Shown here: one piece after another, positions 8,965 to 40,293 of the stretch
How the letters are laid out: every line of letters starts with the position of its first letter
Position numbering within the stretch: position 1 is the first letter of the stretch
NCBI RefSeq assembly: GCF_004364975.1
Contig: NZ_SOBW01000008.1
Location: 496,001 to 560,000, forward strand
Reading direction: 5' to 3'
Source: Gelidibacter sediminis
GTDB taxonomy: Bacteria; Bacteroidota; Bacteroidia; Flavobacteriales; Flavobacteriaceae
Length of the DNA stretch: 64,000 nt
Position numbers and translations under genes: made by a program
Notes under the pieces: model-generated
What the model was told of the DNA's origin: nothing
Seen by the model: the letters and a program-made list of their open reading frames with translations, nothing else
The model's database searches: none

Positions 8965-9011
8965 TTTCATATAGATATTTTTTTGATATATTTGCTAAAT
9001 CAATTTAGCAA
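8965..9011 (+). promoter_or_regulatory. fucI promoter with overlapping LacI-type operator
   Basis: A TAnnTTTG box (TATATTTG, 8987-8994) with a TTTC element 18 bases upstream (8965-8968) fits the Bacteroidota sigma-factor consensus. A 20-bp near-perfect palindrome, TTGCTAAATCAATTTAGCAA (8992-9011), begins inside the -7 box. Such overlap implies repression by blocking the promoter. Five similar palindromes occur elsewhere in the locus. Confidence 0.75.
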
Positions 9012-9099: not shown

Positions 9100-10878
9100 A
9101 TGAATTATAAAAATTTAGTAGGGCGATTGCCAAAAATAGGAATTAGACCAACCATCGACGGTAGATTGGATGGAGTAAGGGAATCTTTAGAGGAATCAAC
9201 AATGCAAATGGCCAAAAACGCAGCCTTATTTCTGGAAAGCAATTTAAGACATGCTGATGGCAGTAAAGTAGAATGTGTAATTTCTGATACATGTATTGGT
9301 GGAGTAGTTGAGGCTGCAGCTTCTGCAGATAAATTTAGTAGAGAAGGAGTTGGTTTATCTTTAACTGTTACACCCTGCTGGTGCTATGGAACTGAGACCA
9401 TTGATATGGATTCTACAATTCCAAAAGCAATTTGGGGATTTAATGGTACAGAACGACCAGGAGCTGTTTATTTAGCAGCTGCTTTGGCAGGCCACAATCA
9501 AAAAGGAATTCCTGCATTTAGTATTTATGGAAGGGATGTACAGGATAGTGGTGTTACAACCATACCTGATGATGTTCAGGAAAAATTATTGCGTTTTGCA
9601 CGTGCTGGTCTTGCAGTGGCTACTATGAAAGGTAAATCATATCTTTCAATGGGTGCGGTATCTATGGGAATTGCAGGTTCAATTATTGATGCTGATTTCT
9701 TTGAGAGTTTTTTAGGAATGCGTTGTGAAAGCATTGATATGTCTGAGTTCATTAGAAGAATTGAAGAAGGAATATATGACAAAGATGAATATGAGAAAGC
9801 CTTAGCTTGGACTAAAAAAAATTGCAAAGAAGGAAAAGATTACAATCCAAAAGACAGAAAAAAATCGAGAGAAGATTTGGATAAAGACTGGGAGTTTGTT
9901 GTTAAAATGGCGCTAATTGGTCGTGATCTAATGATTGGTAATCCTAAATTGAAAGCAATGGGGTATGGCGAGGAGGCCTTAGGTAGAAATGCCCTGGTTA
10001 GTGGTTTCCAAGGTCAAAGACAATGGACAGACCATTTTCCAAACGGAGATTTTATGGAAGCAATTTTAACTTCTTCTTTTGATTGGAATGGCGTTAGGCA
10101 ACCATTTATGGTAGCTACTGAAAATGATAGCTTAAATGGAGTCTCTATGTTATTTGGACACCTTATTAATGGAGCAGCTCAGGTCTTTAGCGACGTTCGA
10201 ACCTATTGGAGTCCAGAATCTGTTAAACGCGTAACAGGATATGAATTAACTGGTGATGCTGAAAATGGATTCATTCATTTAATAAATTCTGGAGCATCAG
10301 CCTTAGATGGATCGGGAGAGCAAAGCATTAATGGAAAACCTGCAATGAAATCATGGTGGGATATTCAAGAAGATGAGGTTCAAAAATGTTTAGACAAAAC
10401 AACTTGGGGACCTGGAATGTTGGAATACTTTAGGGGAGGTGGCTTTTCATCAACTTTTAATACAAAAGGAGGAATGCCAATAACGATGTGTAGAATTAAT
10501 ATTGTTAAAGGAATAGGTCCTGTGTTACAAATTGCAGAAGGTAAAACAATTGATTTACCTAAAAATGTGCATGATACTCTGGTTGAGAGAACAAATCCAA
10601 CTTGGCCTACCACTTGGTTTGTTCCTAACTTAACTGGGGAAGGCGCTTTTAAAGATGTATATAGTGTAATGGCTAATTGGGGGGCTAATCATGGAGCTTT
10701 TACTTATGGACATATAGGAGCAGATTTAATAACATTAGCATCAATGCTTAGAATACCAGTGAATATGCATAATGTTGTTGAGGAAAAGTTATTTAGACCA
10801 AGTGCTTGGGCTTCTTTTGGAATGGATAAAGAAGGAGCGGATTATAGAGCCTGTTCAACATATGGTTCATTATACTAA
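9100..10878 (+). CDS. fucI: L-fucose isomerase / D-arabinose isomerase
   Basis: A 592-residue protein colinear with E. coli FucI (591 residues) along its whole length, with long identical blocks ([49 protein letters not shown]). FucI interconverts L-fucose and L-fuculose, and equally D-arabinose and D-ribulose, using a manganese ion. The metal and catalytic residues are in place: E341, D365 and H531, equivalent to E337, D361 and H528 of the E. coli enzyme. It is the first gene behind an operator-controlled promoter and lies 20 bases upstream of an AraB-type ribulokinase, not a fuculokinase. This pairing argues that D-arabinose is a real, perhaps the main, substrate. The enzyme is cytoplasmic. 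Confidence 0.97.
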
Positions 10879-10898
10879 TCCTTGAAATTGTTTTAATT

Positions 10899-12524
10899 AT
10901 GAGAAATGACACTTATGTTATTGGTATAGATTACGGAAGTGATTGTGTTAGGGCTGTAGTTATCAGTGCTTTAAATGGAGATGAAATATCTACGGCAACA
11001 AAGGATTATAATCGATGGAGTCAAGGTTTGTATTGTGACCCTTTAAAGAATCAATATAGACAACACCCCTTAGATTATATCGAAGCTCTTGAAGAAGTAG
11101 TTAAGGATGTTTTATCCACATGTGATTCTGTAGTAACAAATAATATAGTTGCATTGAGTTTTGATACAACTGGTAGCACACCTGTCTTGGTGGATCAAAA
11201 AGGAATGCCGTTAGCTTTAAAACCTGAATTTTTTGAAAATCCAAATGCAATGTTTGTATTATGGAAAGATCATACGGCAATTAAAGAAGCGGAAGAAATA
11301 AATAAATTGGCTAAGCAATGGAGAGAAGATTATACAAAATATGAAGGAGGTATTTATTCTTCAGAATGGGTTTGGGCTAAAATGCTACATGTTTTAAGAG
11401 AAGACGAATCTATCAGAAAAGAGGCTTTTTCTTGGGTAGAACATTGCGATTGGATGCCGGCTTTAGTAACAGGAAATACACTACCTAAAGAAATCAAGAG
11501 AAGTAGATGCGCGGCAGGACATAAAGCAATGTGGCATACTGATTGGGAAGGTTTACCTTCTGAAGCGTTTTTATCAACTTTAGATCCGTTATTATTAGGA
11601 TTTAGAGAAAGATTATATAACGAAACTTTTACGAGCGGAGTTAGTGTTGGAAACTTATCTGATGAGTGGGCAGTAAGGTTGGGATTAACGACTAATGTAA
11701 AAGTAGGGGTAGGTATTTTTGATGCACATTCAGGAGCAGTTGGCGGTGAGATAAAACCCGGAGCATTATTGAGGATTATAGGTACATCAACCTGTGACAT
11801 AATGGTAGTTCCTTATGAACAAATTAATGACAGACTAATACAAGGTATTTGTGGGCAAGTTGATGGTTCTGTAGTGCCTGGATTAATTGGATTAGAAGCT
11901 GGACAAAGTGCTTTTGGTGATATTTATGCTTGGTTTAAGGAAATTCTATCTTGGCCACTTACATTGATAAAAGATCAAAAGTTAGTTGCAAGAGTAGAAG
12001 CAGAAATAATTGAACAATTATCTTTTGAAGCGTCAAAATTACCAGTTACAGAATGTGATATTATTGCAACAGATTGGTTAAATGGAAGACGCACTCCAGA
12101 TGCAGATCAAACCTTAAAAGCGACTATTACAGGACTAACGTTGGGGACTACAGCTCCAATGATTTTTAAGTCTTTAGTGGAAGCCTCAGCTTTTGGATCA
12201 AAAGCTATTGTAAATAGGCTTGTTGAAAATAGTATAGAGATTAAAGAAATAATTGCGTTAGGTGGAGTCGCTAAAAAGTCAGAATTTGTTATGCAAACAC
12301 TTTCCAATGTTTTGAACTTGAAGATTAAAGTAGCAAAATCAAATGAAACTTGTGCTCTGGGAGCAGCTATGTATGCTGCAGTTGTTGGAGGCGTGTATAA
12401 TACGTTACAAGAGGCACAAAAAGCTATGGGATATGGTATGGAGAAAGAATATTTCCCAAATGCTTCAAAAGCTAAAGTTTATGAATCTAATTACAATAAA
12501 TATACAAAATTAGGTAAATGTTAA
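10899..12524 (+). CDS. araB: Ribulokinase (FGGY family, AraB type)
   Basis: A 541-residue FGGY carbohydrate kinase that follows E. coli AraB closely from start to end: GIDYGSD.VRAV, DTTGSTPVL, PNAMFVLWKDHTAI.EA, GGIYSSEW.WAK.LHV, CDW.PAL.(T/S)G, GICGQVDGSVVPG.IGLEAGQSAFGDIYAWF and DW.NGRRTP. It is not like FucK or RhaB. AraB phosphorylates ribulose at O5, and the E. coli enzyme is known to accept D-ribulose as well as L-ribulose. With FucI directly upstream and no araA or araD in the window, the simplest product is D-ribulose 5-phosphate from D-arabinose. Whether it also phosphorylates L-fuculose is not known. Confidence 0.93.
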   Translation: MRNDTYVIGIDYGSDCVRAVVISALNGDEISTATKDYNRWSQGLYCDPLKNQYRQHPLDYIEALEEVVKDVLSTCDSVVTNNIVALSFDTTGSTPVLVDQKGMPLALKPEFFENPNAMFVLWKDHTAIKEAEEINKLAKQWREDYTKYEGGIYSSEWVWAKMLHVLREDESIRKEAFSWVEHCDWMPALVTGNTLPKEIKRSRCAAGHKAMWHTDWEGLPSEAFLSTLDPLLLGFRERLYNETFTSGVSVGNLSDEWAVRLGLTTNVKVGVGIFDAHSGAVGGEIKPGALLRIIGTSTCDIMVVPYEQINDRLIQGICGQVDGSVVPGLIGLEAGQSAFGDIYAWFKEILSWPLTLIKDQKLVARVEAEIIEQLSFEASKLPVTECDIIATDWLNGRRTPDADQTLKATITGLTLGTTAPMIFKSLVEASAFGSKAIVNRLVENSIEIKEIIALGGVAKKSEFVMQTLSNVLNLKIKVAKSNETCALGAAMYAAVVGGVYNTLQEAQKAMGYGMEKEYFPNASKAKVYESNYNKYTKLGKC

Positions 12525-12650
12525 GTTAAAGTAATTAATTTAGACAAATAAATTGATTTGAAGGGATATCACTTTATTTATAATTTAATAAGTTTTATTA
12601 GGAAGAAAATATCAAAACGAAAGGAAATAATAAGTAAATCTAAAGGTTAT

Positions 12651-13655
12651 ATGAAGAAGGTAAGTTTGAGTGATATTTCTAAAGAATTAGGAGTTTCTAA
12701 AACATTAGTGTCTTTCGTTATGAATGGTAGAGCCAAGGAGAAGAGGATTAATGATGAAGTAGCAAAGAAAGTACTCGCTAAAGCAAAAGAATTAGGGTAT
12801 AAAGCTGATTACCTTGCTAGAGCTATGAGAACAGGGAAATCTCAAACAATAGGATTAGTTATGGCAGATATTTCGAATCCATTTTTTTCAAAATTAGCAA
12901 GAAGTATTGAAAATGAAATAGCGAAATTTGGTTATAATGTAATTTTTGGTAGTTCTGATGAGGATCATATTAAATCAGGTAAATTAATTGAAGTATTTAA
13001 AGATAAAAAGGTAGATGGACTTATTATTTGCCCTACCGTAGGAGATAAAAATCACATCAAGAAATTAAATAAAGAAAAATATCCATATGTTTTGGTTGAT
13101 AGGTATTTTAAAGAAATACCATCAAATAATGTAATGGTGGATAACTATGGAGGTTCTTTTGAAATCGTTGATAATCAAATTAAATCAGGAAGAAAAAAAA
13201 TTGCTTTTATTAATTTTAATGTAGAGTTAATTAACATGATGGATCGTTTCCATGGGTATCTAGAAGCTTTAAAAGTGAATGGATATGAATTAGACAACAC
13301 ATTAGTTAAGAATGTAAGTTTTAAAGATATTGAAAAGGAAACTTATGAAGCAATGGAAGAGTTATTGAATGTTAACCCAAAGATTGATTCTATATATTTT
13401 GCTAATAATCGATTGGCTTTCCTAGGTATAAAATATCTCATTGAAAACAATATTAACGACCTTAAAAAACTACAGTTATCATCATTTGATGGTTTCGATT
13501 TTATGCCTTTGATGCAAATGCATATCAGTTATGGAATCCAGCCTATAGAGCAGTTGGGGATATCAGCGGTAGATTCTATTATGAAACAAATAAATAATAA
13601 AGAAGAATCTTCGAAACATGCTATGCTTCCAATGGATCTTTCCTTAATAAATTAA
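12651..13655 (+). CDS. LacI-family transcriptional regulator
   Basis: A 334-residue LacI/GalR protein. The helix-turn-helix lies at the N-terminus (VSLSDISKELGVSKTLVSFVMNG), followed by the hinge helix region (GYKADYLARAMRTGKS) and a periplasmic-binding-protein-like sensor domain (TIGLVMADISNPFFSKLARSIE). I start it at the ATG at 12651, because the open frame reaching back to 12558 begins with TTG and adds 31 basic residues before the conserved HTH. It lies third in the fucI-araB operon, 126 bases after araB. The six palindromes centred on TCGA in this locus are typical LacI operators, so it probably represses the whole utilization locus, including its own operon, until a sugar effector binds. 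The effector is not known. Confidence 0.92.
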   Translation: MKKVSLSDISKELGVSKTLVSFVMNGRAKEKRINDEVAKKVLAKAKELGYKADYLARAMRTGKSQTIGLVMADISNPFFSKLARSIENEIAKFGYNVIFGSSDEDHIKSGKLIEVFKDKKVDGLIICPTVGDKNHIKKLNKEKYPYVLVDRYFKEIPSNNVMVDNYGGSFEIVDNQIKSGRKKIAFINFNVELINMMDRFHGYLEALKVNGYELDNTLVKNVSFKDIEKETYEAMEELLNVNPKIDSIYFANNRLAFLGIKYLIENNINDLKKLQLSSFDGFDFMPLMQMHISYGIQPIEQLGISAVDSIMKQINNKEESSKHAMLPMDLSLIN

Positions 13656-13700: not shown

Positions 13701-13749
13701 TTTGGATAACTATTAAAAATATGGTACTTTAGCTAAATCGATTCAGCAA
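13701..13749 (+). promoter_or_regulatory. Promoter and LacI-type operator upstream of the permease
   Basis: TTTG (13701-13704), 20 bases, then TACTTTAG (13725-13732, near TAnnTTTG). The operator core GCTAAATCGATTCAGC (13732-13747) starts at the last base of the -7 box. One half-site base differs from the perfect palindrome. Confidence 0.7.
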
Positions 13750-13899
13750 TATGAAAATATTGGTTTTGAGAAACTAACGTTTTTCCTTTTATATTGACAT
13801 ACTTTATTTAAAGTAAAATACGAAACTGAGAATATTATTTTAGAAACTAAAAAGAATGGCCTTTAGAGAATTCCGTATGTGAGATTTGATTGGAAAATT

Positions 13900-15237
13900 A
13901 TGAATAAAGAAATTAAAAAAGTTGATAAGAATAAATCTATGGTAGATTTTTCTAATGGTCAGATCCCAATTGTTTCAAAGCAAGTGCTGATCCCATTTAT
14001 TTTAATAACGTCCTTATTTGCTTTATGGGGTTTTGCAAATGATATTACCAATCCAATGGTTTCTGCATTTAAAAAAATCATGGAACTAGACAATTTTCAA
14101 GCCTCATTAGTGCAATTGGCTTTTTATGGAGGATATGGAACCATGGCATTGCCTGCTGCAATTTTTATAAAGAGATACTCTTATAAAAAGGGAATATTGA
14201 TGGGGTTAACGCTCTATGCTGTTGGAGCATTATTGTTTTATCCTGCAGCAGTTTACGAACAGTATTATTACTTTTTGGCAGCCTTGTATATTTTAACTTT
14301 CGGACTAGCATTTTTAGAAACCACAGCCAACCCTTATATATTGGCAATGGGAGATGAAAGAACAGCAACCCAACGTTTAAACTTGGCGCAGGCTTTTAAT
14401 CCTATAGGGGCATTGTCAGGGTTATTTGTTGCTCAAACTTTTGTGTTAGGAGCTTTACAATCTGACGATGTAAACTTTTCAGCATTAACTGAAGACGCCA
14501 AATCAGTAATTAAAACATCTGATTTATTGGTGATAAGAGACCCATATGTGGCTTTAGGAGCTTTTGTATTGTTGATGTTAGCTGTTATTGCCTTTGTGAA
14601 AATGCCAGAAAATATGGAAAGCAATCAATCAAGTGTTTGGGAGTCTATAAAAAGATTGTTTAAAAAAGAGCGTTTTGTAGGTGGGGTAATTGCACAAACA
14701 TTTTATGTTGGTGCACAAATTATGTGTTGGACCTATATTTATCAATATGCCGAAATATTGGGGATTGACAACCAAACGACTGTTTATTACGCCATGTCTG
14801 CTTTAGGAGTATTTTTAGCTGGACGTTGGATTTGTACTTTTCTTTTGAAATATATAAACTCAGGAAAGCTATTATTAATTCTTTCCTTAGGAGCAATTGG
14901 TTGTACTCTCGGAGCCATATTTATTCATGGAATGGGAGGTTTGTATAGTTTGGTGGCTATTTCTTTCTGTATGTCTTTAATGTTTCCAACAATTTACGGA
15001 ATTGCTTTAAAAGGTTTAGGCGACGATGCCAAATATGCTTCAGCATTCTTAGTAATGGCCATTGTTGGTGGTGCAATTATGCCATCATTGCAAGGTTTAA
15101 TTTTAGATATTGGAGGTCCAGGATATAAAGATGTTTCAATATTAGGTGTGCCTGAAGTGAATTTTTCATTTTTTCTACCATTAACGTGCTATGTGGTAGT
15201 TGCGTTATACGGTTACCGAGCAATTAGGTATAATTAG
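13900..15237 (+). CDS. fucP: FucP-type MFS sugar/proton symporter
   Basis: A 445-residue major facilitator protein of the FucP/GluP branch with about 12 hydrophobic segments. Family motifs are visible: LFALWGFANDITNPMV in the first helix, the AFYGGYGTMALPAAIFIKRYSYKKGI region, and LETTANPYILAMGDERTATQRLNLAQAFNPIGA. E. coli FucP carries L-fucose and also D-arabinose and L-galactose across the inner membrane with protons, which fits either substrate model here. The start is set at the ATG at 13900 rather than a GTG 21 bases earlier. It follows its own operator and heads a long run of plus-strand genes. Confidence 0.9.
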   Translation: MNKEIKKVDKNKSMVDFSNGQIPIVSKQVLIPFILITSLFALWGFANDITNPMVSAFKKIMELDNFQASLVQLAFYGGYGTMALPAAIFIKRYSYKKGILMGLTLYAVGALLFYPAAVYEQYYYFLAALYILTFGLAFLETTANPYILAMGDERTATQRLNLAQAFNPIGALSGLFVAQTFVLGALQSDDVNFSALTEDAKSVIKTSDLLVIRDPYVALGAFVLLMLAVIAFVKMPENMESNQSSVWESIKRLFKKERFVGGVIAQTFYVGAQIMCWTYIYQYAEILGIDNQTTVYYAMSALGVFLAGRWICTFLLKYINSGKLLLILSLGAIGCTLGAIFIHGMGGLYSLVAISFCMSLMFPTIYGIALKGLGDDAKYASAFLVMAIVGGAIMPSLQGLILDIGGPGYKDVSILGVPEVNFSFFLPLTCYVVVALYGYRAIRYN

Positions 15238-15276: not shown

Positions 15277-16536
15277 ATGAAAAATACATTTAATAATGTA
15301 ATTATAACAGTAATTGTTTTGATAATTACAGTTTCGTGCCATACTAAAAAAAATAAAAAAGTGGAAAAAACAACTGAAGAAAAAACAATAGAGGAAAAAG
15401 GAACTTTCGGTTACGATAAAGCCTTTCTTCTAAAGCATTACAAAAACACCATCGTTTTAGAAAGCAATGACGGTAAATCAGGTATGGTACTTTCTCCAGA
15501 ATTGCAAGGACGTGTTATGACAAGTACTTTAAATGGAGAAGAAGGAATGAGTTTTGGTTGGTTGAATTATGACTTGATCAGCTCAAAAGAAACCAAAAAT
15601 CATTTCAATCCTACCGGTGGTGAAGAACGCTTTTGGTTAGGGCCAGAAGGCGGTCAATTTTCAATTTATTTTGCAAAAGATAAAAGTTTTGAATTTGAAA
15701 ACTGGTATGTTCCGGCATCAATAGATACAGAGGCATTTACAGTAATTGAACAAAATGACCATAGCGTATTGTTTAAAAAAGAAATGAATTTGGTAAATTA
15801 TTCAGGCACAAAATTCAATATTGATGTAAATAGGAAAGTTAGCCTTCTAACGAAACAGCAGGTTCTAGAAACATTGGAGCTATCAAATGACAAGTTCAAC
15901 ATGGTAGCCTATGAAACTCAAAACAAGGTCAAGAACATAGGTAAGGAGCCATGGAGCAAAGATTCAGGATTGTTGTCAATATGGTTACTGAGTATGATGA
16001 CTCCTTCTCCTGAAGTAACCGTAGTTGTCCCTATAAAAGAAGGTTTAGAAAGTGAAAAAGGAATAAAAGTGAACGATAATTATTTTGGGAAAGTAGCTGA
16101 TGATAGATTAAAAAGTACTCAACGCAATGTGTTTTTTAAAGCTGATGGAAAAAGTCGCGGAAAAATTGGATTTTCTCCGCAAAGGTCAACTGAATTTATA
16201 GGAAGCTATGACGCTCAAAATAAAGTGCTAACTATTTTGCAGATTCCAGAACCAAAACCTACAGATAAATATGTAAACTCAGCATGGGAATTGCAAAAAG
16301 ACCCCTATTCTGGAGACGTATTAAACTCTTATAATGATGGTCCTTTAGAAGATGGTTCTCAAATGGGGCCTTTTTATGAATTAGAGAGTTCTTCTCCTGC
16401 CTTGGCTCTAAAACCTAATCAGAGTTATATCCATACACAGCGTATCTATCATTTTAAAGGTTCAAAAGTAGTATTGAATAAAATAGCAAAACAATTATTA
16501 AAAGTTTCAATTGAAGAGATTGAAGCAGTCTTTTAA
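15277..16536 (+). CDS. Mutarotase-like lipoprotein (DUF6786-like)
   Basis: A 419-residue predicted lipoprotein (hydrophobic stretch then TVSC at about residues 18-21). The body looks like the all-beta galactose-mutarotase superfamily: GMVLSPELQGRVMTSTLNGEEGMSFGWLNYD, and GGEERFWLGPEGGQFSIYF. I associate this pattern with DUF6786 proteins found in Bacteroidota sugar loci, but have no enzymatic evidence. A role in sugar epimerization or glycan binding in the periplasm is plausible. It lies between the permease and a GH29 gene and is probably cotranscribed. Confidence 0.55.
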   Translation: MKNTFNNVIITVIVLIITVSCHTKKNKKVEKTTEEKTIEEKGTFGYDKAFLLKHYKNTIVLESNDGKSGMVLSPELQGRVMTSTLNGEEGMSFGWLNYDLISSKETKNHFNPTGGEERFWLGPEGGQFSIYFAKDKSFEFENWYVPASIDTEAFTVIEQNDHSVLFKKEMNLVNYSGTKFNIDVNRKVSLLTKQQVLETLELSNDKFNMVAYETQNKVKNIGKEPWSKDSGLLSIWLLSMMTPSPEVTVVVPIKEGLESEKGIKVNDNYFGKVADDRLKSTQRNVFFKADGKSRGKIGFSPQRSTEFIGSYDAQNKVLTILQIPEPKPTDKYVNSAWELQKDPYSGDVLNSYNDGPLEDGSQMGPFYELESSSPALALKPNQSYIHTQRIYHFKGSKVVLNKIAKQLLKVSIEEIEAVF

Positions 16537-16546
16537 AAAAATAATT

Positions 16547-18748
16547 ATGATTAATAAAATTTTAACCTGCGCATTTTGTGTACTAATATTCACAGCAGCT
16601 AATGCACAAGGTCAGCGAACAATAAAAATAAATTCAGAAGATTCACACGACGATATTATCGAAAAAGCAGCTTTGGTGGTTCCAACTGCCAACCAATATG
16701 CTTATAAAAAACTAGAGTTCACATGTTTTGTTCATTTTGGAGTGAATACGTTTACTAGAAAAGAATGGGGAGATGGGTTTGAAGACCCAAAAATTTTTAA
16801 TCTCCAAAATTTAGATACCGACCAATGGTGTAGAACGGCGAAAGAAGCAGGGATGAAATTGGTTATGTTTACCGCGAAACATCACGATGGATTTGTTCTT
16901 TGGCAATCACGATACACCAAGCATGGTGTAATGTCTTCACCATTTAAAGATGGTAAAGGGGATGTGCTTAAGGAACTAGCGGCATCTTGCCAAAAATATG
17001 GATTGAAGCTAGGTGTGTACCTTTCTCCGGCAGACTTATATCAGATAGAAAATAAAGAAGGACTTTATGGAAACTTAAGTGAATATACCGAACGTGTAAT
17101 TCCTCGACCTATAGAGGGAAGGCCTTTTGCTAACAAAACATCTTTTAAATTTAAGGTAGACGATTATAATGAGTATGTTTTGAACCAGCTTTTTGAATTG
17201 TTAACAGAATATGGGCCAATCCATGAAGTATGGTTTGATGGAGCACATCCAAAGCGTAAGGGAGATCAACAATACAATTATTTGGCGTGGAAAAAATTGA
17301 TACAAACTTTGGCTCCAGAGGCTGTTATTTTTGGAAAAGAAGACGTTCGCTGGTGCGGTAATGAATCGGGTGCTACGCGTGAATCTGAATGGGATGTGGT
17401 TACCTTTGATGAAGACCCTCATCAAATGAATCTTTTTCCAGATATGCATGGAGATTTAGGGAGTCGAGAAAAATTATTTGATGCAAAATATTTGCATTAT
17501 TTACCGGCAGAGACAGATACGTCTATTAGAGAAGGTTGGTTTTATAGAGATGAGACAGATCAAAAGGTGCGTAGTGCAGATGATGTGTTCGATATCTACG
17601 AACGATCGGTTGGAGGGAATGCTACATTTTTGTTAAATATACCGCCCAATAGAGAAGGAAAGTTTTCTGATGAAGATGTAAGCGTACTTAAAGAAGTAGG
17701 GAAAAGAATAAGAGAAACTTATGGTAATGATCTCTTGAAAAATGCCAAAGGAGAAAGTGCTATACTTGATGCAAATGAAGATTCTTATGTTTTGGGAGAA
17801 AATGGTAAAGATACTTTTATCATTACTTTACCAAAGACGATAACATTGAATCGTTTTGTATTACAAGAAGCCATTCAAACTCATGGACAACGCATAGAAA
17901 AACATGCATTAGATGCATGGGTAAATGATAAATGGGAACATGTAGCGGAAGGTACTACAATAGGATATAAAAAAATATTAAGATTTGCTGATGTGACCGC
18001 CAACAAACTGAGAGTAAGAATATTAAAATCACGTTCAAAATTTTCCTTATCTAAAGTATCTGCACATTATTATACACCGCGTCCACCGCAATTGTCAATT
18101 AACCGTAACCTTAACGGCCAAGTAACTATTGCACCTAAAAAAAGTGATTTCGGATGGAAATTACATGGAGAAGGTTTTCAAAAGGATTTATCAAATGACT
18201 TGGAAATTAGATACACTACAGATGGTACCGTTCCTAATAAAAACTCTAAAATTTTTACAAATAGTTTTTTCTTGAAATCAGGTGGAGTCAAAGCTATTGC
18301 ATTCGAAAAGGAACAAACAGGAAGTTTGTCAGAAAGAGAATTTGGGTTGGTTAAAAAGAACTGGACTGTCAAAGGTACAACTGATAATAAGAACAAGCCA
18401 GAAAATGCAATTGATGCCGACGAGAAAACGTATTGGAATTCCGGAAATGGAGTACCAGAATTAACAATCGATTTAAAAGAAACTAAATCGATTCGAGGGT
18501 TTATTTATACGCCACCATTAAACTTTAAAGAAGGACTTATTGAGAAAGGAATTATAAAAGTAAGTAAAAACGGGGAATCATGGAAAACAGTACAAACTTT
18601 TGATTTAGGAAACCTTATCAATGACCCAACGGCACGGACAATACAATTTACCAAAAAAGTAAAAGGACAATATATTCGAATAGAAGCAATAATAGGTGCG
18701 GGAGGAAGCACTTCAGCAACCATTGCAGAAATTGATATATTAGAATAA
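16547..18748 (+). CDS. GH29 alpha-L-fucosidase-type enzyme with C-terminal beta domains
   Basis: A 733-residue secreted protein. I start at the ATG at 16547, which gives a signal peptide ending near ANAQ; the longer frame from 16511 overlaps the upstream gene and lacks a leader. The catalytic barrel (about 40-400) has GH29 landmarks: FVHFGVNTFT, FTAKHHDGFVLW, LGVYLSPAD and the nucleophile D231 in VWFDG. The sequence resembles the GH29-B branch. C-terminal parts are an F5/8-type segment (about 420-510), a chitobiase/hexosaminidase C-terminal-like repeat (YTTDGTVPNKNS, about 545-610) and a second F5/8/CBM32-like domain to the end. GH29 releases alpha-L-fucose; some members accept alpha-L-galactosides, and beta-D-arabinopyranosides are stereochemically similar. 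Confidence 0.9.
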   Translation: MINKILTCAFCVLIFTAANAQGQRTIKINSEDSHDDIIEKAALVVPTANQYAYKKLEFTCFVHFGVNTFTRKEWGDGFEDPKIFNLQNLDTDQWCRTAKEAGMKLVMFTAKHHDGFVLWQSRYTKHGVMSSPFKDGKGDVLKELAASCQKYGLKLGVYLSPADLYQIENKEGLYGNLSEYTERVIPRPIEGRPFANKTSFKFKVDDYNEYVLNQLFELLTEYGPIHEVWFDGAHPKRKGDQQYNYLAWKKLIQTLAPEAVIFGKEDVRWCGNESGATRESEWDVVTFDEDPHQMNLFPDMHGDLGSREKLFDAKYLHYLPAETDTSIREGWFYRDETDQKVRSADDVFDIYERSVGGNATFLLNIPPNREGKFSDEDVSVLKEVGKRIRETYGNDLLKNAKGESAILDANEDSYVLGENGKDTFIITLPKTITLNRFVLQEAIQTHGQRIEKHALDAWVNDKWEHVAEGTTIGYKKILRFADVTANKLRVRILKSRSKFSLSKVSAHYYTPRPPQLSINRNLNGQVTIAPKKSDFGWKLHGEGFQKDLSNDLEIRYTTDGTVPNKNSKIFTNSFFLKSGGVKAIAFEKEQTGSLSEREFGLVKKNWTVKGTTDNKNKPENAIDADEKTYWNSGNGVPELTIDLKETKSIRGFIYTPPLNFKEGLIEKGIIKVSKNGESWKTVQTFDLGNLINDPTARTIQFTKKVKGQYIRIEAIIGAGGSTSATIAEIDILE

Positions 18749-18857: not shown

Positions 18858-19862
18858 ATGAAATCAATAAACATAGTTGTAGCAATAGTGGTCACTCTAA
18901 CCATATCTTCATGTAACATCAGTAAAGCGCAAATCAATAAACCCAATGAGCAAGGGTTGTCGCTGTTGGAACTTGCTGATATACCCTATTTAAAAGGAGA
19001 AAGTCGACAAATATTTGATCCAAAACCAGCTAAGGATTTTGATGAAAACAAATGGTTCACTAATGATCATTGTTTTGTAACCGATAAAAAAGGAGAACTT
19101 CATTGGTTTGGAATCAATAATCCTTTTCCTCCAGAAGGGAAAGAACTATATAGATACCATCCCTATTTAGGTCATTTAACTTCAAATAGTGCAACCGAAA
19201 ACTGGAAACGTCAACCTTTTGCTATTAATGAAATTGAAGGAACTGAATACGTTGGAGCTCCATTTGTTGTATGGCATGATGAATCTAATCGTTGGGTAAT
19301 GGTTGTAGAACAATGGAGAGAGAAAAGGCAATTAGAGGTTTATTGGTCTACAGATTTAATGAACTGGGAAGAAACTAAAACCGCCATTTTACCAAATAAA
19401 TTAAGGATAGGAACAAGAGATCCTCATATCATGAAAGGCTCTGATGGAAAATATTGGATTCACGTGGTGGCAACTGGAAATAAAGGTGTAAAGCAATCAC
19501 AGGTACTTAGAATTAGAACTAAAGATTTCATCACTTTTGAAGACCCTGAAACCATCTTAGGGATTAATGACATAGAATGGGCAACTTTAATAGAATCTCC
19601 TTATTTAAAAGAACACAACGGACTTTGGTATTTGTTTTTTACCTATGCCCACAGACGTTATGCAGAGACATTAGTAGTTGTCTCAGATGATCCAGATCAT
19701 TTTGATTACGAAAAAAATGTGGTAACAACCTTATTTGGTCATGCGGCAGAAATAGTCAATTATAAAGGAAAAGAATATATCACTTCTTGTGGTCCTGAAG
19801 ATGCACATTATTTGAATGGTCATGGTGTGACTATGACTGAATTGGGGTGGTTAAAACAATAA
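18858..19862 (+). CDS. GH43-clan five-bladed propeller lipoprotein
   Basis: A 334-residue predicted lipoprotein (TISSC at about 15-19). The body has the three acidic motifs of the GH32/43/68/117 five-bladed propeller superfamily in order: WFTNDHCF (in place of NDP), GTRDPHIM (the RDP transition-state-stabilising motif) and LIESPYL (acid/base glutamate). It cannot be placed in a named family by eye; GH43- or GH117-like is the safest wording. A paralog with the same NDH motif lies at 23551-24549. Enzymes of this clan act on arabinofuranosides, fructosides and anhydrogalactosides, so an exo-acting role on a furanosidic sugar is a reasonable guess. Confidence 0.65.
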   Translation: MKSINIVVAIVVTLTISSCNISKAQINKPNEQGLSLLELADIPYLKGESRQIFDPKPAKDFDENKWFTNDHCFVTDKKGELHWFGINNPFPPEGKELYRYHPYLGHLTSNSATENWKRQPFAINEIEGTEYVGAPFVVWHDESNRWVMVVEQWREKRQLEVYWSTDLMNWEETKTAILPNKLRIGTRDPHIMKGSDGKYWIHVVATGNKGVKQSQVLRIRTKDFITFEDPETILGINDIEWATLIESPYLKEHNGLWYLFFTYAHRRYAETLVVVSDDPDHFDYEKNVVTTLFGHAAEIVNYKGKEYITSCGPEDAHYLNGHGVTMTELGWLKQ

Positions 19863-19891: not shown

Positions 19892-22504
19892 GTGAATAGA
19901 TTATATGCCATTATTTTAATGGGACTGTTCGTATTGAATGTAACAGCTCAAACAGATAAGAAAAGTAAATTAGAAGGCAGTTCAACAAATGAATTAAAGT
20001 ATATTGGAATGCCCGTGGGAGGAATCTGTGCAGGACAAGTATACCTTGGAGGTGATGGCCAACTTTGGTATTGGGATATTTTCAACGTAGCAATGTTAAA
20101 CCCAGGTAATGAAGGAGGACATCGATATTATGAAAACCCACTAACCCAAGATAAAAAGTTTGAAAACGGTTTTGGATTGACCATTCGCCAAGGAGATCGT
20201 GTTCTTGTGAGAGCTTTAAACAGTACAGGTTTTTCGGATGTGCTATTTGAAGGAGAATATCCTGTTGGTAAAGTTTCTTATAATGATGATAGGTTACCAG
20301 TAAGTGCAAACTTAGTAGCTTATTCTCCTTTTATCCCAACAGATGCTAAGAATTCTGGATTACCAGTTACAATATTAGAATATACAGTAAGCAATAATGA
20401 TGATGAAGATGTAGCTATAGAATTATCAGGATGGTTACAAAATATGTCAAGTTTCTTAAGTGCAGAAGGCAATGAAGGAAAGCATACTAATAAAGTGATT
20501 TCAACAGAAGAATATACTCGTTTGGTATGTGAGAGCGATGATAAATTTAAAGATAAATTACCCGATTGGGGCTCAATGAGTTTGACTTTAGTTGGTAAAG
20601 GAAAGGCTACTGCAGAATCTATTGATTCAAAAGGATTGCCAATTTTTAACGCGAATGGTGACAAGAAGGAAGCCTCGACAAGTCTTGGAAATAAGCTAGT
20701 CGGTAGCGTATCTGGATCTACAGTTTTAAAACCAGGAGAAAGCAAGACTTTTACGTTTCATTTAAGTTGGTACTTTCCAAATATTCATTTGTGGGATGGA
20801 GGGCATCATTGGAAAAATAAAGAAAACCTAAGACATTATTATACGACATATTTTAATAGTTCTAAAGAGGTGTCTGATTATTTACTAAATAATAATAATC
20901 TTTTGGAAACCACCAAAACATGGAATAAAACTTGGTATGATTCTTCCTTGCCAAAATGGTTTTTAGACAGAACATTTGTCAATGTTAGTACTTTGGCTAC
21001 CACAGCCTCGGTAAGGTTTAACGATCTAACCGATTCTCCAGAAAGTGAAGGACGCTTTTATACTTTTGAAGGAGTTTATCTAGGTGAAGGAACTTGCACC
21101 CATGTTTTTCATTATGAGCAAGCTATGGGTAGAGTTTTCCCAAACTTGGCACGACAACTTAGAGAACAGATAGATTTAGGCTTGTCATATGAAGAAAATG
21201 GTATTATTGGTTATCGGGGTGAATTTAGTAATACAGGACGTCATGATGGACGAGGATTTGCTATTGATGGGCACGCAGGTACGATAATGCGCATTTACCG
21301 TGAACATTTAATGTCTTCAGACAAAACATTTCTAAAAAATAACTGGAAGAGAATTAAGAAATCTATCCAGGTTATGATAGATCAGGATAAGGAAAAAACA
21401 GGACGTGCTGATGGGATTTTGGAAGGTAAACAATACAATACCTTAGATAGAACTTGGTATGGAAAAATTACTTGGATAAGTGGTTTGTATGCAGCTTCTT
21501 TAAGAGCAGGGGTTGAAATGGCAAAGGAAATGGGTGACTCTAAATTTTCTAGGGAATGTGAAAAAATAGCAAATAAATCATTCAAAAATATTTCTAAGGA
21601 ATTATTTAATGGAGAATATTTTATTCAAAAAACAGATATGGAACATCCTGATTCTCCAAATACCAATATAGGCTGTCATACCGATCAATTATTGGGGCAA
21701 TATTGGACGACTCAAACAGGGTTGGGAGATATTTTACCAAGCGATCAGGTAAAAAAAGCACTTCAATCTATTATGAAATACAATTTTACCGATAACTATG
21801 GAGACTATTTGAAGCATGCAGATATTCCTGTAAAACGTTTCTATGCTGATAAAGATGAACAAGGAATTATTATGTGCACCTTTCCAAAAGGCGGTACAGA
21901 TGAGGCTCCTGGAATTATTAAAAATGAATGGGAAAATCTGGTTATAGGTTATTTTAGTGAAATATGGACCGGACAGGAACATCAATTGGCGGCAACTCTT
22001 ATCTCTGAGGGACTTGTAGAAGAGGCTATGAAAATTGAAAAAGCGGTACATGATCGCTATGCTCCTTCAAAAAGAAACCCATATAACGAGATTGAGTATG
22101 GGAATCATTATACCAGAGCAATGAGTGGTTATGCTCCTTTTATTGCGGCTTCTGGCTTTAAATATTATGGCCCAAAGGGAATTATTGGTTTTGCACCGAA
22201 GATGAATCCGGAAAACTTTAAATCAGCCTTTATAACAGCAGAAGGCTGGGGAAGTTTTAGTCAACAGGTAACGGATTCTTCCCAAGAAGTACAGTTGAGT
22301 ATGAATTATGGCAAATTAAACCTGAATCAAATCCAACTCGAACTTCCTAAGGGGAAAAAAGCTTCCAAGTGGCAGATTACCTTAAATGGAGAAGCTGTGA
22401 CGACCCTTGACTCTAAATCTATAGAAGGAGCATTAAATATAAGAACAGCTCCCATTTCCTTAGAGAAAGGAGATGTTATAAAAGCAGTGTTAGTCCTGAA
22501 ATAA
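19892..22504 (+). CDS. GH116-like glycoside hydrolase
   Basis: An 870-residue secreted protein starting with GTG at 19892, with a signal peptide ending VTAQ. The N-terminal domain (about 30-330) begins YIGMPVGGICAGQVYLGGDGQLWYWDIFN, characteristic of the GH116 N-terminal beta-sandwich. The C-terminal (alpha/alpha)6 domain contains GTCTHVFHYEQAMGRVFP, the region holding the catalytic glutamate, and NTLDRTWYGKITWISGLYAASLRAG, the region holding the acid/base aspartate. Characterised GH116 enzymes are beta-glucosidases, beta-xylosidases or N-acetylglucosaminidases. Six bases separate it from the next gene, so they are cotranscribed. Confidence 0.85.
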   Translation: MNRLYAIILMGLFVLNVTAQTDKKSKLEGSSTNELKYIGMPVGGICAGQVYLGGDGQLWYWDIFNVAMLNPGNEGGHRYYENPLTQDKKFENGFGLTIRQGDRVLVRALNSTGFSDVLFEGEYPVGKVSYNDDRLPVSANLVAYSPFIPTDAKNSGLPVTILEYTVSNNDDEDVAIELSGWLQNMSSFLSAEGNEGKHTNKVISTEEYTRLVCESDDKFKDKLPDWGSMSLTLVGKGKATAESIDSKGLPIFNANGDKKEASTSLGNKLVGSVSGSTVLKPGESKTFTFHLSWYFPNIHLWDGGHHWKNKENLRHYYTTYFNSSKEVSDYLLNNNNLLETTKTWNKTWYDSSLPKWFLDRTFVNVSTLATTASVRFNDLTDSPESEGRFYTFEGVYLGEGTCTHVFHYEQAMGRVFPNLARQLREQIDLGLSYEENGIIGYRGEFSNTGRHDGRGFAIDGHAGTIMRIYREHLMSSDKTFLKNNWKRIKKSIQVMIDQDKEKTGRADGILEGKQYNTLDRTWYGKITWISGLYAASLRAGVEMAKEMGDSKFSRECEKIANKSFKNISKELFNGEYFIQKTDMEHPDSPNTNIGCHTDQLLGQYWTTQTGLGDILPSDQVKKALQSIMKYNFTDNYGDYLKHADIPVKRFYADKDEQGIIMCTFPKGGTDEAPGIIKNEWENLVIGYFSEIWTGQEHQLAATLISEGLVEEAMKIEKAVHDRYAPSKRNPYNEIEYGNHYTRAMSGYAPFIAASGFKYYGPKGIIGFAPKMNPENFKSAFITAEGWGSFSQQVTDSSQEVQLSMNYGKLNLNQIQLELPKGKKASKWQITLNGEAVTTLDSKSIEGALNIRTAPISLEKGDVIKAVLVLK

Positions 22505-22510: not shown

Positions 22511-23437
22511 ATGAAAATAAGATCCAATTTTGTTATAACCATATTTACCCTGATTTCTATCTTTTTGAATATGTCTTGCTCCTCAACAGAAAAAGTTCTT
22601 GGCAGTAAAAGACAGCCCTTGGCCAAACATATTATTTTGGTAGGGGCCGATGGGTTAGGAGCTTATGCCTTTGATAAAGCAGAGATGCCTAATATAAGAA
22701 AAATGATGGAGGGAGGAGCATATTCTTTAAGTGCTAGAGCAGTACTACCTTCTTCAAGTGCTGTAAATTGGGCTTCCATGATAATGGGATCGGGACCAGA
22801 GCTTCATGGCTTTACGGAATGGGGAAGCAAAAAACCAGAGTTACCTTCTGTTGTTCTGGGAAAAAGCGGACTTTATCCTACCATTTTTAGTGTTATAGAT
22901 CAGCAATTGCCAAAGGCTAAAATGGGGGTGTCCTATAGTTGGTCAGGAATAGGCTATCTTTTTGAAAAAGAGTTGGTCGATCTGGACAGAAAAGGTGAAA
23001 CAGAAGAAGAAACGATGCAGAATGGCATTGATTTTATTATCCATGAAAAGCCCGCCTTTACTTTTATACATCTAGATGAGCCAGATCATACAGGTCATGC
23101 TATTGGCCACGATACTCCTGAATATTACAGCGCTGTATCTCGTATAGATAAGCTGGTAGGAAACCTTTTAGAAGCCTTGGAAAAGGAAAATTTAATGCAA
23201 GAGACTATCATTATTTTTACCGCAGACCATGGTGGAATAATTACTGGCCATGGAGGAAAAACTTTATTAGAAACTCAGATTCCTTGGATCGCCTATGGAA
23301 AAGGAATATTGGGGAAAGGCGAACTTAAAAACACTATTGTTACCTATGATACGGCAGCTACCATTGCATATCTATTAGGGTTAAAAGTTCCAGAATCATG
23401 GCGTGGAAAACCGGTAACCGAAATTTTTACCCCCTAG
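22511..23437 (+). CDS. Type I phosphodiesterase / nucleotide-pyrophosphatase-like lipoprotein
   Basis: A 308-residue predicted lipoprotein (NMSC at about 17-20) of the alkaline phosphatase superfamily. The two-metal site can be traced: LVGADGLGAYAF, the nucleophile region LPSSSAVNWASM (a serine where many family members have threonine), DEPDHTGHAIGH, FTADHGG and TGHGG. This set supports an active NPP-type phosphodiesterase rather than a sulfatase, since no CxPxR or SxPxR formylglycine motif is present. It is tightly linked to the GH116-like gene. A possible job is removal of a phosphodiester substituent from the glycan in the periplasm. Confidence 0.8.
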   Translation: MKIRSNFVITIFTLISIFLNMSCSSTEKVLGSKRQPLAKHIILVGADGLGAYAFDKAEMPNIRKMMEGGAYSLSARAVLPSSSAVNWASMIMGSGPELHGFTEWGSKKPELPSVVLGKSGLYPTIFSVIDQQLPKAKMGVSYSWSGIGYLFEKELVDLDRKGETEEETMQNGIDFIIHEKPAFTFIHLDEPDHTGHAIGHDTPEYYSAVSRIDKLVGNLLEALEKENLMQETIIIFTADHGGIITGHGGKTLLETQIPWIAYGKGILGKGELKNTIVTYDTAATIAYLLGLKVPESWRGKPVTEIFTP

Positions 23438-23550
23438 ATATTATATCAAAAAATAGTATTATAAAATAAGTATGTCGGAAACTAATTTAATTTAGGAGTT
23501 AAGATATGTTAGTTGCACAGGACGATAAAAAATCAATAAATAGGATATAT

Positions 23551-24549
23551 ATGAAAAATAAATTTTTAAAATTACCCTTTTCCCTAATGTTGGCAGGAAT
23601 AACGATGATTCCTATGGGATGCAAACAGAAATCCATAAAAACAGAGAAACCGAAAGAAGCTACCTTTAAGGTAGAAACTCCCATAATTTCTGGTGAATGG
23701 GAACATATATTTAATCCAAATGATACCCGTTCTGAAATCGATACGACTTGGTACACCAACGACCATTGTTTTGCCAAGGGGCCAGACGGCAAATGGCATG
23801 CCTATGGTATTATTGGTCATAAACCCATTAACCCCTGGACCGGAGAAAATAAACTTTTCCATATTTCTGCTGATAGCATTTCCCAATTAAAGTGGGAAGA
23901 CCACGATTATGCTCTTAAGGTAAAGCCTGGAGTTGAACGGGTGCTATGGGCACCCCATGTCTTTCAGGAAAACGGTAAAAATTACATGTTCTATAATATA
24001 GGCAATTTACAGGAAAATGCACCAAATTATGCCAGTTGGGGACAGTTGTGTATGGCAGAATCCGATGATATGTTTAATTGGAAACGGCATGAATTAAACC
24101 CTTTGTTTAGCGACCCTGGGCATGCCCGAGACTCGTATATTTTTAAAGACAATGGTATGTACTACTTTTATTATACCCGAACCTTCAATGAAGTGGATAT
24201 TCGATCTTGTGTAGCAGTTAGAACCAGTCCGGATCTGAAACATTGGAGTGGACCAAAAATTGTTCACACCCAACCCTATGAAGCGGATTGGGGAGGTGAT
24301 TCCGAGAGTCCCTTTATAGTAAAAAGAGATGGTTTATACTACCTATTTGTGTGTCTTGCACTCACCGATTATAATGAAACCCATGTATATTGGTCAAAAG
24401 ACCCTACAAATTTTCCCATAGAAAATTTAGTGACCTCCCTGCCTTTGCATGCCCCTGAGGTAATTAAGGTTAGTGAAGATGAATGGTATATCTCCAATAC
24501 TGGTTGGGATAAAAAAGGATTATCCATAGCTAAATTGGAATGGAAATAA
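23551..24549 (+). CDS. GH43-clan five-bladed propeller lipoprotein (second paralog)
   Basis: A 332-residue predicted lipoprotein starting at the ATG at 23551; the open frame reaching back to 23506 adds 15 residues before the signal sequence (lipobox PMGC). It repeats the motif order seen in the protein at 18858: WYTNDHCFA, HARDSYIFKDNG (RD with Ser in place of Pro) and DSESPFIVKRDGLYYLF. This is a GH43/GH32-type five-bladed propeller without a family name that I can assign. The loss of the proline after RD and the shared NDH motif mark the pair as a distinct subgroup. Confidence 0.65.
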   Translation: MKNKFLKLPFSLMLAGITMIPMGCKQKSIKTEKPKEATFKVETPIISGEWEHIFNPNDTRSEIDTTWYTNDHCFAKGPDGKWHAYGIIGHKPINPWTGENKLFHISADSISQLKWEDHDYALKVKPGVERVLWAPHVFQENGKNYMFYNIGNLQENAPNYASWGQLCMAESDDMFNWKRHELNPLFSDPGHARDSYIFKDNGMYYFYYTRTFNEVDIRSCVAVRTSPDLKHWSGPKIVHTQPYEADWGGDSESPFIVKRDGLYYLFVCLALTDYNETHVYWSKDPTNFPIENLVTSLPLHAPEVIKVSEDEWYISNTGWDKKGLSIAKLEWK

Positions 24550-24556: not shown

Positions 24557-25474
24557 ATGAAGGATAATATAGATAGAAGAAGTGTTATTAAAAAATTAGG
24601 AATCGGAGCAGGTGCAATGTTGATGCCGCAACTCGGGAATTCACAAAAATTTGATGAGGAAGGCAATGGTAAAAAAGTGTTGACAATTGCACATATTACC
24701 GATATTCATATGCGACCAGAATTGAATGCTCCAATGCGATTTAGGCAATGTATGGCCAATATTAAATCACATAAAATTGACTTCTTTCTCAATGGGGGTG
24801 ATACAATTTATGCTGCGGATTATGTTGATATTAGACGAGAACGGGTAGAGGAACAATGGAACCTATGGCAAGAATTAAGAAGTGAATTATCTGAATACGA
24901 AATTTATAGTTGTCTAGGGAATCATGATATGTGGTGGGCCGCTCCGGATAATATGGATAGAATGTATGGAAAGGATTATGTTGTGAGTCAATTGGGAATA
25001 CCCAACAGGTATTATAGTTTTGACAAAGAAGGATGGCATTTCATTATTTTGGATAGTAATAATGGCAAGGCTGGCTCATTGGATGAAGAGCAGCGCGTTT
25101 GGTTACAGGAGGACTTAAAGTCGCTTGATCAAGGAAGCAATGTTTTAATAATGTCACATTATCCGATTTTGGGGGTTTGTACAATATTAGATGGTGGAAA
25201 TCATACGGACAGTGCTGAAATTGCTTCCTTGTTTTATGAGCATCGGGACAAGAAGATAAATTGTCTAAGTGGACATGTACATTTGTTGGATACTGCTCAG
25301 TATAATGGAGTAAATTATTTCTGCAATGGAGCTCTTAGCGGATTTTGGTGGGAGGAAGGCAATGAGCAATCCAAAGGAAAATATTGGTATAAAGAAACGC
25401 CCCCAGGGTATGCAATTGTCAATCTATACCATGATGGTCTCATCGAAAATAAGTATTATCCTCATTCTTTCTAA
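24557..25474 (+). CDS. Calcineurin-like metallophosphoesterase with Tat-type leader
   Basis: A 305-residue metallophosphatase. The five metal-binding motifs are complete: ITDIHM (D-x-H), NGGDTIY (GD), CLGNHDMWW (GNHD), MSHYP and SGHVHLLD (GHVH). The N-terminus carries twin arginines (DRRSVIKKLGIGAGAML), suggesting Tat export of a folded, metal-loaded enzyme. Eight bases separate it from the upstream propeller gene. Together with the NPP-type enzyme two genes away it suggests that the target glycan carries phosphate or phosphodiester groups; a housekeeping phosphatase role cannot be excluded. Confidence 0.85.
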   Translation: MKDNIDRRSVIKKLGIGAGAMLMPQLGNSQKFDEEGNGKKVLTIAHITDIHMRPELNAPMRFRQCMANIKSHKIDFFLNGGDTIYAADYVDIRRERVEEQWNLWQELRSELSEYEIYSCLGNHDMWWAAPDNMDRMYGKDYVVSQLGIPNRYYSFDKEGWHFIILDSNNGKAGSLDEEQRVWLQEDLKSLDQGSNVLIMSHYPILGVCTILDGGNHTDSAEIASLFYEHRDKKINCLSGHVHLLDTAQYNGVNYFCNGALSGFWWEEGNEQSKGKYWYKETPPGYAIVNLYHDGLIENKYYPHSF

Positions 25475-40250: not shown

Positions 40251-40293
40251 TTGCTAAATCGATTCAGCAAATAAATTATTTTTATTACATTTG
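40251..40293 (+). promoter_or_regulatory. LacI-type operator and promoter of the GH29/GH151 unit
   Basis: The 20-bp near-palindrome TTGCTAAATCGATTCAGCAA (40251-40270) matches the copy at 13732 in its core. A TACATTTG box (40286-40293, matching TAnnTTTG) follows 16 bases later and could be the -7 element, which would put the operator in the -33 region rather than over the start site. Confidence 0.7.

Follow-up and report, generated by a model that had tools for sequence, protein, structure and literature searches.

The locus examined here raises the question of which sugar is metabolized by an isomerase of the FucI family that is encoded next to a kinase of the AraB family within a gene row of fucose-like appearance. 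It lies in a window of 64 kb from the genome of Gelidibacter sediminis (G000:C2:496001-560000; 3.56 Mb in 15 contigs, with a listed completeness of 99.95%). The window contains 54 open reading frames (ORFs) of at least 100 amino acids (aa), some of them spurious, and 40 window ORFs were scanned with Pfam. A row of genes on the same strand starts with fucI and the kinase gene and runs to position 47935 (Table 1), and it includes a susC/susD pair (25914-30819) together with carbohydrate-active enzymes, the combination by which polysaccharide-utilization loci (PULs) are recognized in Bacteroidota. The locus is very likely a PUL whose monosaccharide end is a dedicated route for D-arabinose, a rare sugar. 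The named relatives carrying the same module, Salegentibacter echinorum (L003) and Arenibacter sp. (L006), belong to the Flavobacteriaceae. Papers are cited below by PubMed Central number from the excerpts available.

The isomerase-kinase pair and its genomic background

The full-length match of FucI to the NCBIfam family TIGR01089 (1064 bits, cutoff 850, residues 9-592) and its 67% identity to FucI of E. coli K-12 over 584 aa bear out the original prediction that the two proteins are colinear. The metal ligands are kept, E341, D365, and H531 aligning with E337, D361, and H528 of the E. coli enzyme, for which Glu, Asp, and His ligands are named in PMC6894278. The best PDB match is 3a9r, deposited as a D-arabinose isomerase (1003 bits), with L-fucose isomerase chains scoring about 890-900 bits; FucI enzymes generally take both sugars (PMC6894278). 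The adjacent kinase had rightly been placed with AraB and not with FucK. It exceeds the cutoff of the NCBIfam ribulokinase model PRK04123 (699 bits, cutoff 428) and narrowly misses that of a second ribulokinase model, TIGR01234 (564 of 583 bits), whereas the L-fuculokinase model yields 44 of 471 bits. Its identity to E. coli AraB is 47% over 537 aa, as against a partial match of 22% over 297 aa to FucK.

No domain of the FucA, FucO, AldA, AraA, or AraD type occurs among the 40 scanned ORFs, in agreement with the earlier claim that these genes are missing from the window; fucO and aldA were looked for in window ORFs only. Genome-wide, the Aldolase_II family (PF00596, comprising FucA, AraD, and RhaD) gave no match, with a control search positive in 12 of 14 genomes, and neither did AraA_N (PF02610), with a control positive in five. 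The search for a fucA elsewhere, proposed as a check on the original prediction, therefore returned none. The FGGY_C domain has two matches in the genome, the locus kinase and a glycerol kinase (glpK) beside an aquaglyceroporin-like gene, and ribulose-phosphate 3-epimerase (Rpe) is present. The AraB-family kinase thus has no genetic link to araA or araD in this genome, and of the FucI-FucK-FucA pathway neither the kinase, by the model score given above, nor the aldolase was found.

Since both PF00596 and AraA are absent, cleavage of L-fuculose 1-phosphate by the Aldolase_II family and the L-arabinose pathway are unavailable, and, with Rpe present, D-ribulose 5-phosphate is the product that has an onward route in the genome. 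Conversion of D-arabinose to D-ribulose and further to D-ribulose 5-phosphate is the sole complete use that we found for the pair as predicted from gene content, and we infer D-arabinose as the substrate of FucI and D-ribulose as that of the kinase. These absences support the core of the original prediction, an aldolase-free D-arabinose route of two steps with D-arabinofuranosidases as its source, as do the finding of GlpK as the sole other FGGY kinase and the best matches of the hydrolases and the common palindrome described below.

A separate, probably oxidative cluster for L-fucose

A search with MR_MLE_C led to a second cluster about 340 kb from the locus (L147; G000:C2:154925-163677). It encodes an AraC-family regulator, a fuconate-dehydratase-like protein, a short-chain dehydrogenase/reductase (SDR), an FAA hydrolase, a lactonase, an L-fucose dehydrogenase, a second FucP (58% to the FucP of the locus), and a flavin mononucleotide-dependent protein of the L-lactate dehydrogenase type. 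This gene set, which we take to constitute an oxidative, non-phosphorylating route, looks built to burn L-fucose. The L-fucose dehydrogenase scores above its cutoff (403 bits, cutoff 300). For the lactonase and the FAA hydrolase, the best models are L-fucono-1,5-lactonase (278 of 400 bits) and 2,4-didehydro-3-deoxy-L-rhamnonate hydrolase (355 of 500 bits), both below cutoff, and the second dehydrogenase matches only the general SDR family. The dehydratase aligns with L-fuconate dehydratase 1yey at 570 bits, this chain ranking third after 4ip4 and human ENOSF1 (4a35). Counterparts of the dehydratase with 82-85% identity occur in G001, G002, and G277; the best matches examined reach 42% in G258 and 22% in G233 (where a second strong match was not compared), and those in the aldolase- and AraA-bearing genomes G022 and G167 score about 100 bits. 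The literature search yielded nothing on oxidative L-fucose use in Flavobacteria. Beside the cluster lie genes for a β-lactamase-fold serine hydrolase (PF00144), below every resistance-model cutoff shown, and for a D-serine ammonia-lyase (L147:8185-9870 and L147:6735-8066).

The presence of this cluster bears on two alternatives. The pair might serve L-fucose, with FucI forming L-fuculose, the AraB-type kinase phosphorylating it, and an unrecognized aldolase of another fold acting downstream, and five fucosidase-type genes in the locus would fit such a role. We consider it unlikely, given that the genome lacks PF00596, that, wherever a kinase was seen in the family's aldolase-bearing FucI loci, it was FucK/RhaB-like, that AraB is characterized as a kinase of 2-ketopentoses acting at O5 (PMC6452873), and that an oxidative L-fucose cluster of complete appearance, including a FucP of its own, is already present. 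Instead of a fucA set co-regulated with the locus, the genome holds an oxidative cluster in which the palindrome of the locus was not found.

Analogues derived from D-arabinose are among the substrates that L-fucose dehydrogenases and fuconate dehydratases can take, and the same cluster could oxidize D-arabinose as well, leaving FucI and the kinase as a minor or salvage branch. This appears quite unlikely, because the cluster is without the palindrome and it is the isomerase-kinase pair that occupies the hydrolase locus in six genomes (G000, G001, G002, G277, G258, and G233).

Hydrolases and the target glycan

The strongest candidate supplier of D-arabinose, the GH116 enzyme, was absent from the original prediction. 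Its score with the exo-β-D-arabinofuranosidase ExoMA2 (8ic6), its best match, is 261 bits, compared with 93 bits or less for GH116 β-glucosidases. All four residues checked are kept: E393, H404, R442, and D519 align with E431, H446, R483, and D557 of ExoMA2, on the assumption that the chain numbering is four higher than that of the paper, an offset deduced by us. Glu431, Asp557, His446, and Arg483 are named in PMC10509167, the latter two being replaced in β-glucosidase. We propose that this enzyme is an exo-β-D-arabinofuranosidase.

The three GH172 genes that had been counted in the locus are present, but the first is interrupted by an in-frame TAG, and a role as D-arabinose supplier is predicted for one of them. 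The protein encoded at 33217-34347 matches the characterized exo-α-D-arabinofuranosidase ExoMA1 (8ic8) at 313 bits, followed by 7v1v, of the α-D-fructofuranosidase type, at 115 bits, and is proposed to have the activity of ExoMA1, whereas that at 38363-40093 has 7v1v as its best PDB match (91 bits) and scores lower with ExoMA1 (56 bits). The interrupted gene corresponds to single frames of 690, 679, and 678 aa in the relatives G002, G277, and G258, respectively; the TAG at 31762-31764 may mean that the gene has recently become a pseudogene or consists of two pieces, or it may be an error of sequencing. The further claim that GH29 enzymes supply β-D-arabinopyranose was not sustained, as the three GH29 proteins match α-L-fucosidase families and L-fucose seems to have its own route.

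FucI might also act mainly on another sugar, such as D-altrose or L-galactose, which some FucI enzymes accept according to titles in the reference list of PMC6894278. We regard this as very unlikely, since the neighboring hydrolases resemble D-arabinofuranosidases and, of the products, D-ribulose is the one known to be accepted by an AraB-type kinase.

A D-arabinofuranosidase locus with five fucosidase-type genes and without a detected GH183 gene points to another D-arabinose-bearing glycan, distinct from the D-arabinan of actinobacterial cell walls. With respect to fucoidan, none of the genes of the locus was identified as a true sulfatase, the product of 22511-23437 matching PF01663 best and PF00884 more weakly. 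This gene and 24557-25474, both of phosphoesterase families, stand among the glycosidases, which suggests a phosphate-bearing glycan. A literature search for marine glycans containing both D-arabinofuranose and fucose brought up nothing to the point, as judged by title.

A common palindrome and the predicted regulon

When the intergenic DNA was scanned for near-palindromes, sites resembling GCTAAATC-(R/T)-ATTTAGC emerged, which represent a 16-bp operator-like palindrome. The symmetric 16-mer has six matches in the 64 kb, each with one mismatch, and no further match at up to three mismatches. The expected number was 0.28, and a count of six was reached in none of 100 shuffles; the expectation flatters the palindrome, because its consensus was derived from the very sites of the window that were then counted. 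Independent support comes from its recurrence in relatives. At up to two mismatches, the palindrome was found twice in L003, five times in G002 (L148, L149), three times in G277 (L123, L150), five times in G258 (L128, L151), and once in L056, and its locations in G001, G002, G277, and G258 are of the kinds seen in the window. The site before fucI has the identical 16 letters before fucI in L003, L006, L123, and L128. Only one match was observed in the control loci (86 loci, 1.44 Mb).

The six palindromes probably constitute one LacI-type regulon. Their presumed owner is the LacI-family gene of the locus, whose HTH model (PF00356) is slightly below cutoff (25.1 of 27 bits) and whose start codon was picked by eye within ORF 12558-13655. 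In the proposed scheme, the GH116 (β) and GH172 (α) exo-enzymes would release D-arabinofuranose, FucP would import D-arabinose, FucI would convert it into D-ribulose, and the AraB-type kinase would form D-ribulose 5-phosphate, which could enter the pentose phosphate pathway without an aldolase. The LacI-family regulator, responding to a presumed effector, would act at the six palindromes and switch the isomerase-kinase operon, permease, SusCD, and hydrolases together. The L-fucose that the fucosidase-type enzymes release would pass to the oxidative pathway.

Distribution and phylogeny of the FucI-AraB pairing

Among 299 genomes of the family, 20 have a FucI above the cutoff and one more has a weak match. 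Their FucI neighborhoods were read from 1.5-kb flanks and then from stretches of 4.8-19.5 kb. An AraB-type kinase lies next to or one gene from FucI in seven genomes (G000, G277, G258, G233, G220, G143, and G102), an aldolase is adjacent or next-but-one in eight (G022, G129, G260, G010, G215, G181, G280, and G306), and neither is found nearby in the remaining five. No PF00596 match occurs anywhere in the genome in 4/7 of the AraB-type, 0/8 of the aldolase-type, and 0/5 of the last group (4/7 vs. 0/13, Fisher 0.0072). GH172 occurs within about 30 kb of FucI on the same contig in the same four AraB-type genomes and in 0/13 others (Fisher 0.0072); the two contrasts are not independent, and the linkage contrast was chosen after seeing the data and involves draft contigs. 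GH172 anywhere in the genome is present in 5/7 AraB-type, 4/8 aldolase-type, and 1/5 genomes with neither, compared with 11/279 others, an association with FucI in general (p 3e-8, kinship not corrected). Only the physical linkage of GH172 separates AraB-type from aldolase-type FucI genomes.

The local arrangements vary. Within 19.5 kb, G233 has the order LacI-DUF6786-FucI-FucP-kinase-GH172-GH172 without a GH29 gene. Beyond the 299 genomes, GH172 and FucI share a contig in Arenibacter, and the order in Parabacteroides sp. Marseille-P3160 is GH172-GH172-FucI-SusC-SusD-AraB-type kinase.

The best 80 of 590 confirmed kinase loci include 64 with AraA and/or AraD (L040 only at 26%), 4 with FucI, and 12 with neither, several of them on short contigs. 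In the kinase tree, a quick one supported by the Shimodaira-Hasegawa-like approximate likelihood ratio test (SH-aLRT) only and with long branches for L138, L139, L128, L127, and Ec_AraB, the FucI-linked kinases fall into more than one group. Five of them, including that of the window, make up a clade (SH-aLRT 100), that of L056 is nested in Prolixibacteraceae kinases that are mostly araA/araD-linked, and that of L030 lies in a similar Bacteroidales set. The FucI label requires six changes, gains or losses, at least four of which are forced by the starred branches. Kinases of the AraB type that adjoin FucI are thus found in several distinct parts of this tree. The tree of FucI proteins shows the aldolase-linked ones clustered (two changes), and the AraB-linked ones need five.

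Weighing the D-arabinose route

Several observations weigh against assignment of the locus to D-arabinose. Four L-ribulose-binding positions of the kinase (G92, K209, D275, and E333), of which three are taken by us to be substrate positions, are identical in 65/65 araA/araD-linked or E. coli kinases and equally in 11/11 FucI-linked kinases; being invariant, they give no sign of a D-ribulose preference. The remaining one, A96 of 3QDK, is named in PMC12307932. GH183/DUF4185 has no genome match, in a search whose control genomes were silent too, and none in the 40 scanned ORFs. PF00596 does occur in three of the seven AraB-type genomes. GH172 presence fails as a marker of the AraB-type pairing (5/7 vs. 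4/8, p 0.61), so that it tracks FucI generally and not this pairing as such, and in Salegentibacter, one of the relatives that share the module, GH172 is without a match. The palindrome was not found around L127, L030, L131, L138, and L139. Finally, two FucI proteins of the window's FucI clade, from G167 (L122) and G069 (L124), have no kinase or aldolase within 19.5 kb.

In these last two loci, the palindrome was not found either. Their FucI proteins are 85-86% identical to that of the window, and that of L122 adjoins a GH127-family gene and a sodium:solute symporter. A candidate specificity signature of the kinase, I273, L394, and N470 of the window's five-member clade, is absent from the other six FucI-linked kinases; as it is not common to all of them, no signature is claimed.

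Membership of the kinase in the AraB family and its unchanged binding positions would also agree with a kinase that still serves L-arabinose by phosphorylating L-ribulose, the FucI neighborhood being incidental. We give this scarcely any credence, as the genome has no AraA and no AraD-type protein and kinases paired with FucI are found on more than one branch of the kinase tree. Taken together, the evidence makes us fairly confident that the locus is dedicated to D-arabinose, with a separate oxidative route for L-fucose.

More tentatively, and with rather less than an even chance of being right, Flavobacteria may several times have made the "underground" FucI and AraB route, attained by E. coli in the laboratory only, a dedicated operon with kinases from separate branches, and the version in the window may be tuned by a single LacI-type regulon to an undescribed heteroglycan of D-arabinofuranose and L-fucose, the two sugars being handled by separate pathways. 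As a rule for annotation, a "fucose" locus in which FucI adjoins an AraB-type kinase and no aldolase is to be read as a D-arabinose locus; the palindrome makes this rule testable by transcription.

Comparison with known systems

D-ribulose is phosphorylated by AraB both in vitro and inside cells (PMC12307932), and laboratory evolution of E. coli on D-arabinose led to the joint use of FucI and AraB, combining enzymes of the fuc and ara systems (PMC6452873). Mutants of Klebsiella aerogenes also have a route through D-ribulose 5-phosphate (PMC6452873). The E. coli route involves the same two enzyme families and reactions as proposed here, although fucI and araB of E. coli belong to separate regulons joined by mutation, whereas in the window they are neighbors in a hydrolase locus. 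Enterohemorrhagic E. coli (EHEC) with Aau/AraB and E. coli with DarK (PMC12307932) likewise offer AraB acting on D-ribulose and a D-ribulokinase set in a fucose locus; they differ in depending on uptake of free D-ribulose or on an RbtK-type kinase instead of an AraB-type kinase in a glycan locus.

Two D-arabinan loci, both concerned with actinobacterial cell walls (PMC10115798, PMC10509167), are similar in their hydrolases. PUL42 of Dysgonomonas gadei shares FucI and three DUF2961/GH172 genes with the locus (PMC10115798), as well as a putative GH116 exo-β-D-arabinofuranosidase gene noted in PMC10509167, and FucI is the top carbohydrate-active enzyme of this bacterium on D-arabinan (PMC10115798). 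PUL42 has DUF4185/GH183 endo-D-arabinanases, none of which were found here, though the control of that search was silent; the five fucosidase-type genes distinguish our locus, and no kinase is named for PUL42 in the excerpts. The Microbacterium arabinogalactanolyticum cluster (PMC10509167) combines GH172 ExoMA1 and GH116 ExoMA2 with a putative isomerase and kinase that are proposed to lead to D-ribulose 5-phosphate, but it is Gram-positive, with an ABC transporter and GH183, and the excerpts do not state the isomerase and kinase families. In the open-access literature, which leaves out subscription papers, we found no paper that describes FucI together with an AraB-type kinase and with GH116/GH172 enzymes in a single locus. 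New here are the locus-level pairing checked against whole-genome absences, the common palindrome, the separation from L-fucose, and the set of hydrolases in which D-arabinose and L-fucose types are mixed.

Gene content and genomic context

Table 1. Genes and operator-like palindromes of the locus (window coordinates).
Feature	Position	Strand	Evidence
Operator-like palindrome before fucI	8994..9009		intergenic scan + count
FucI-family isomerase, proposed D-arabinose to D-ribulose	9100..10878	+	TIGR01089 1064 bits; PDB 3a9r best match
AraB-family kinase, proposed D-ribulose to D-ribulose 5-phosphate	10899..12524	+	PRK04123 699 bits; PDB 3qdk ribulokinase 318 bits
LacI-family regulator, proposed palindrome owner	12651..13655	+	PF00532 87 bits, cutoff 22.2
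Operator-like palindrome before fucP	13732..13747		intergenic scan + count
FucP-type permease, proposed D-arabinose importer	13879..15237	+	TIGR00885 539 bits, cutoff 280
DUF6786 protein	15277..16536	+	PF20583 545 bits
GH29 fucosidase-type enzyme	16511..18748	+	PF01120 143 bits
GH43/GH32-like five-bladed-propeller type enzyme (weak)	18858..19862	+	PF00251 31 bits, cutoff 22.1; PF04616 below cutoff
GH116, proposed exo-β-D-arabinofuranosidase	19892..22504	+	PDB 8ic6 ExoMA2 261 bits
Type I phosphodiesterase family protein	22511..23437	+	PF01663 104 bits
GH43-like enzyme	23506..24549	+	PF04616 62.5 bits
Calcineurin-like phosphoesterase	24557..25474	+	PF00149 48 bits
Operator-like palindrome before susC, copy 1	25600..25615		intergenic scan + count
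Operator-like palindrome before susC, copy 2	25672..25687		intergenic scan + count
SusC-type TonB receptor	25914..29156	+	PF07715, PF13715
SusD-type lipoprotein	29161..30819	+	PF07980 179 bits
Operator-like palindrome before interrupted GH172	31038..31053		intergenic scan + count
GH172 gene interrupted by in-frame TAG (31762-31764)	31162..33177 (bounds approximate)	+	piece 2, 31780-33177: PF11175 215 bits
GH172, proposed exo-α-D-arabinofuranosidase	33217..34347	+	PDB 8ic8 ExoMA1 313 bits
MFS_2 sugar transporter	34364..35725	+	PF13347 297 bits
GH141-domain enzyme	35757..38117	+	PF21231 47 bits, cutoff 27
GH172, one partial and one full DUF2961 domain	38363..40093	+	PF11175 212 bits
Operator-like palindrome before second GH29	40253..40268		intergenic scan + count
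GH29 fucosidase-type enzyme	40354..42438	+	PF01120 139 bits; PDB best = GH29-type chains 8ayr, 5k9h
GH29 fucosidase-type enzyme	42446..43933	+	PF01120 383 bits
GHL6-domain enzyme, fucosidase type (presumably GH151)	44029..46095	+	PF14871 95 bits; PDB 6tvk α-L-fucosidase 387 bits
GH20 enzyme	46250..47935	+	PF00728 419 bits

A gene of the DUF6786 family lies near FucI/FucP in L003, L006, L056, L123, L127, and L128. Its product has an invariant Cys21 near the N terminus and is probably a lipoprotein. AlphaFold2 models of four sequences have a mean pLDDT of 56.1, too weak for a fold search, and the family is named in no paper of the open-access literature searched.

The locus has the appearance of an island located at a gene for tRNA-Met (51402-51476). 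A 17-bp stretch of this gene (51428-51444) recurs at 7308-7324, and an intact tyrosine recombinase (7486-8691) is encoded just inside the repeat. FucI is absent from both of the two same-genus genomes in the sample of 299. A recombinase remnant at 48193-48495 is 89% alike to residues 118-218 of the intact recombinase.

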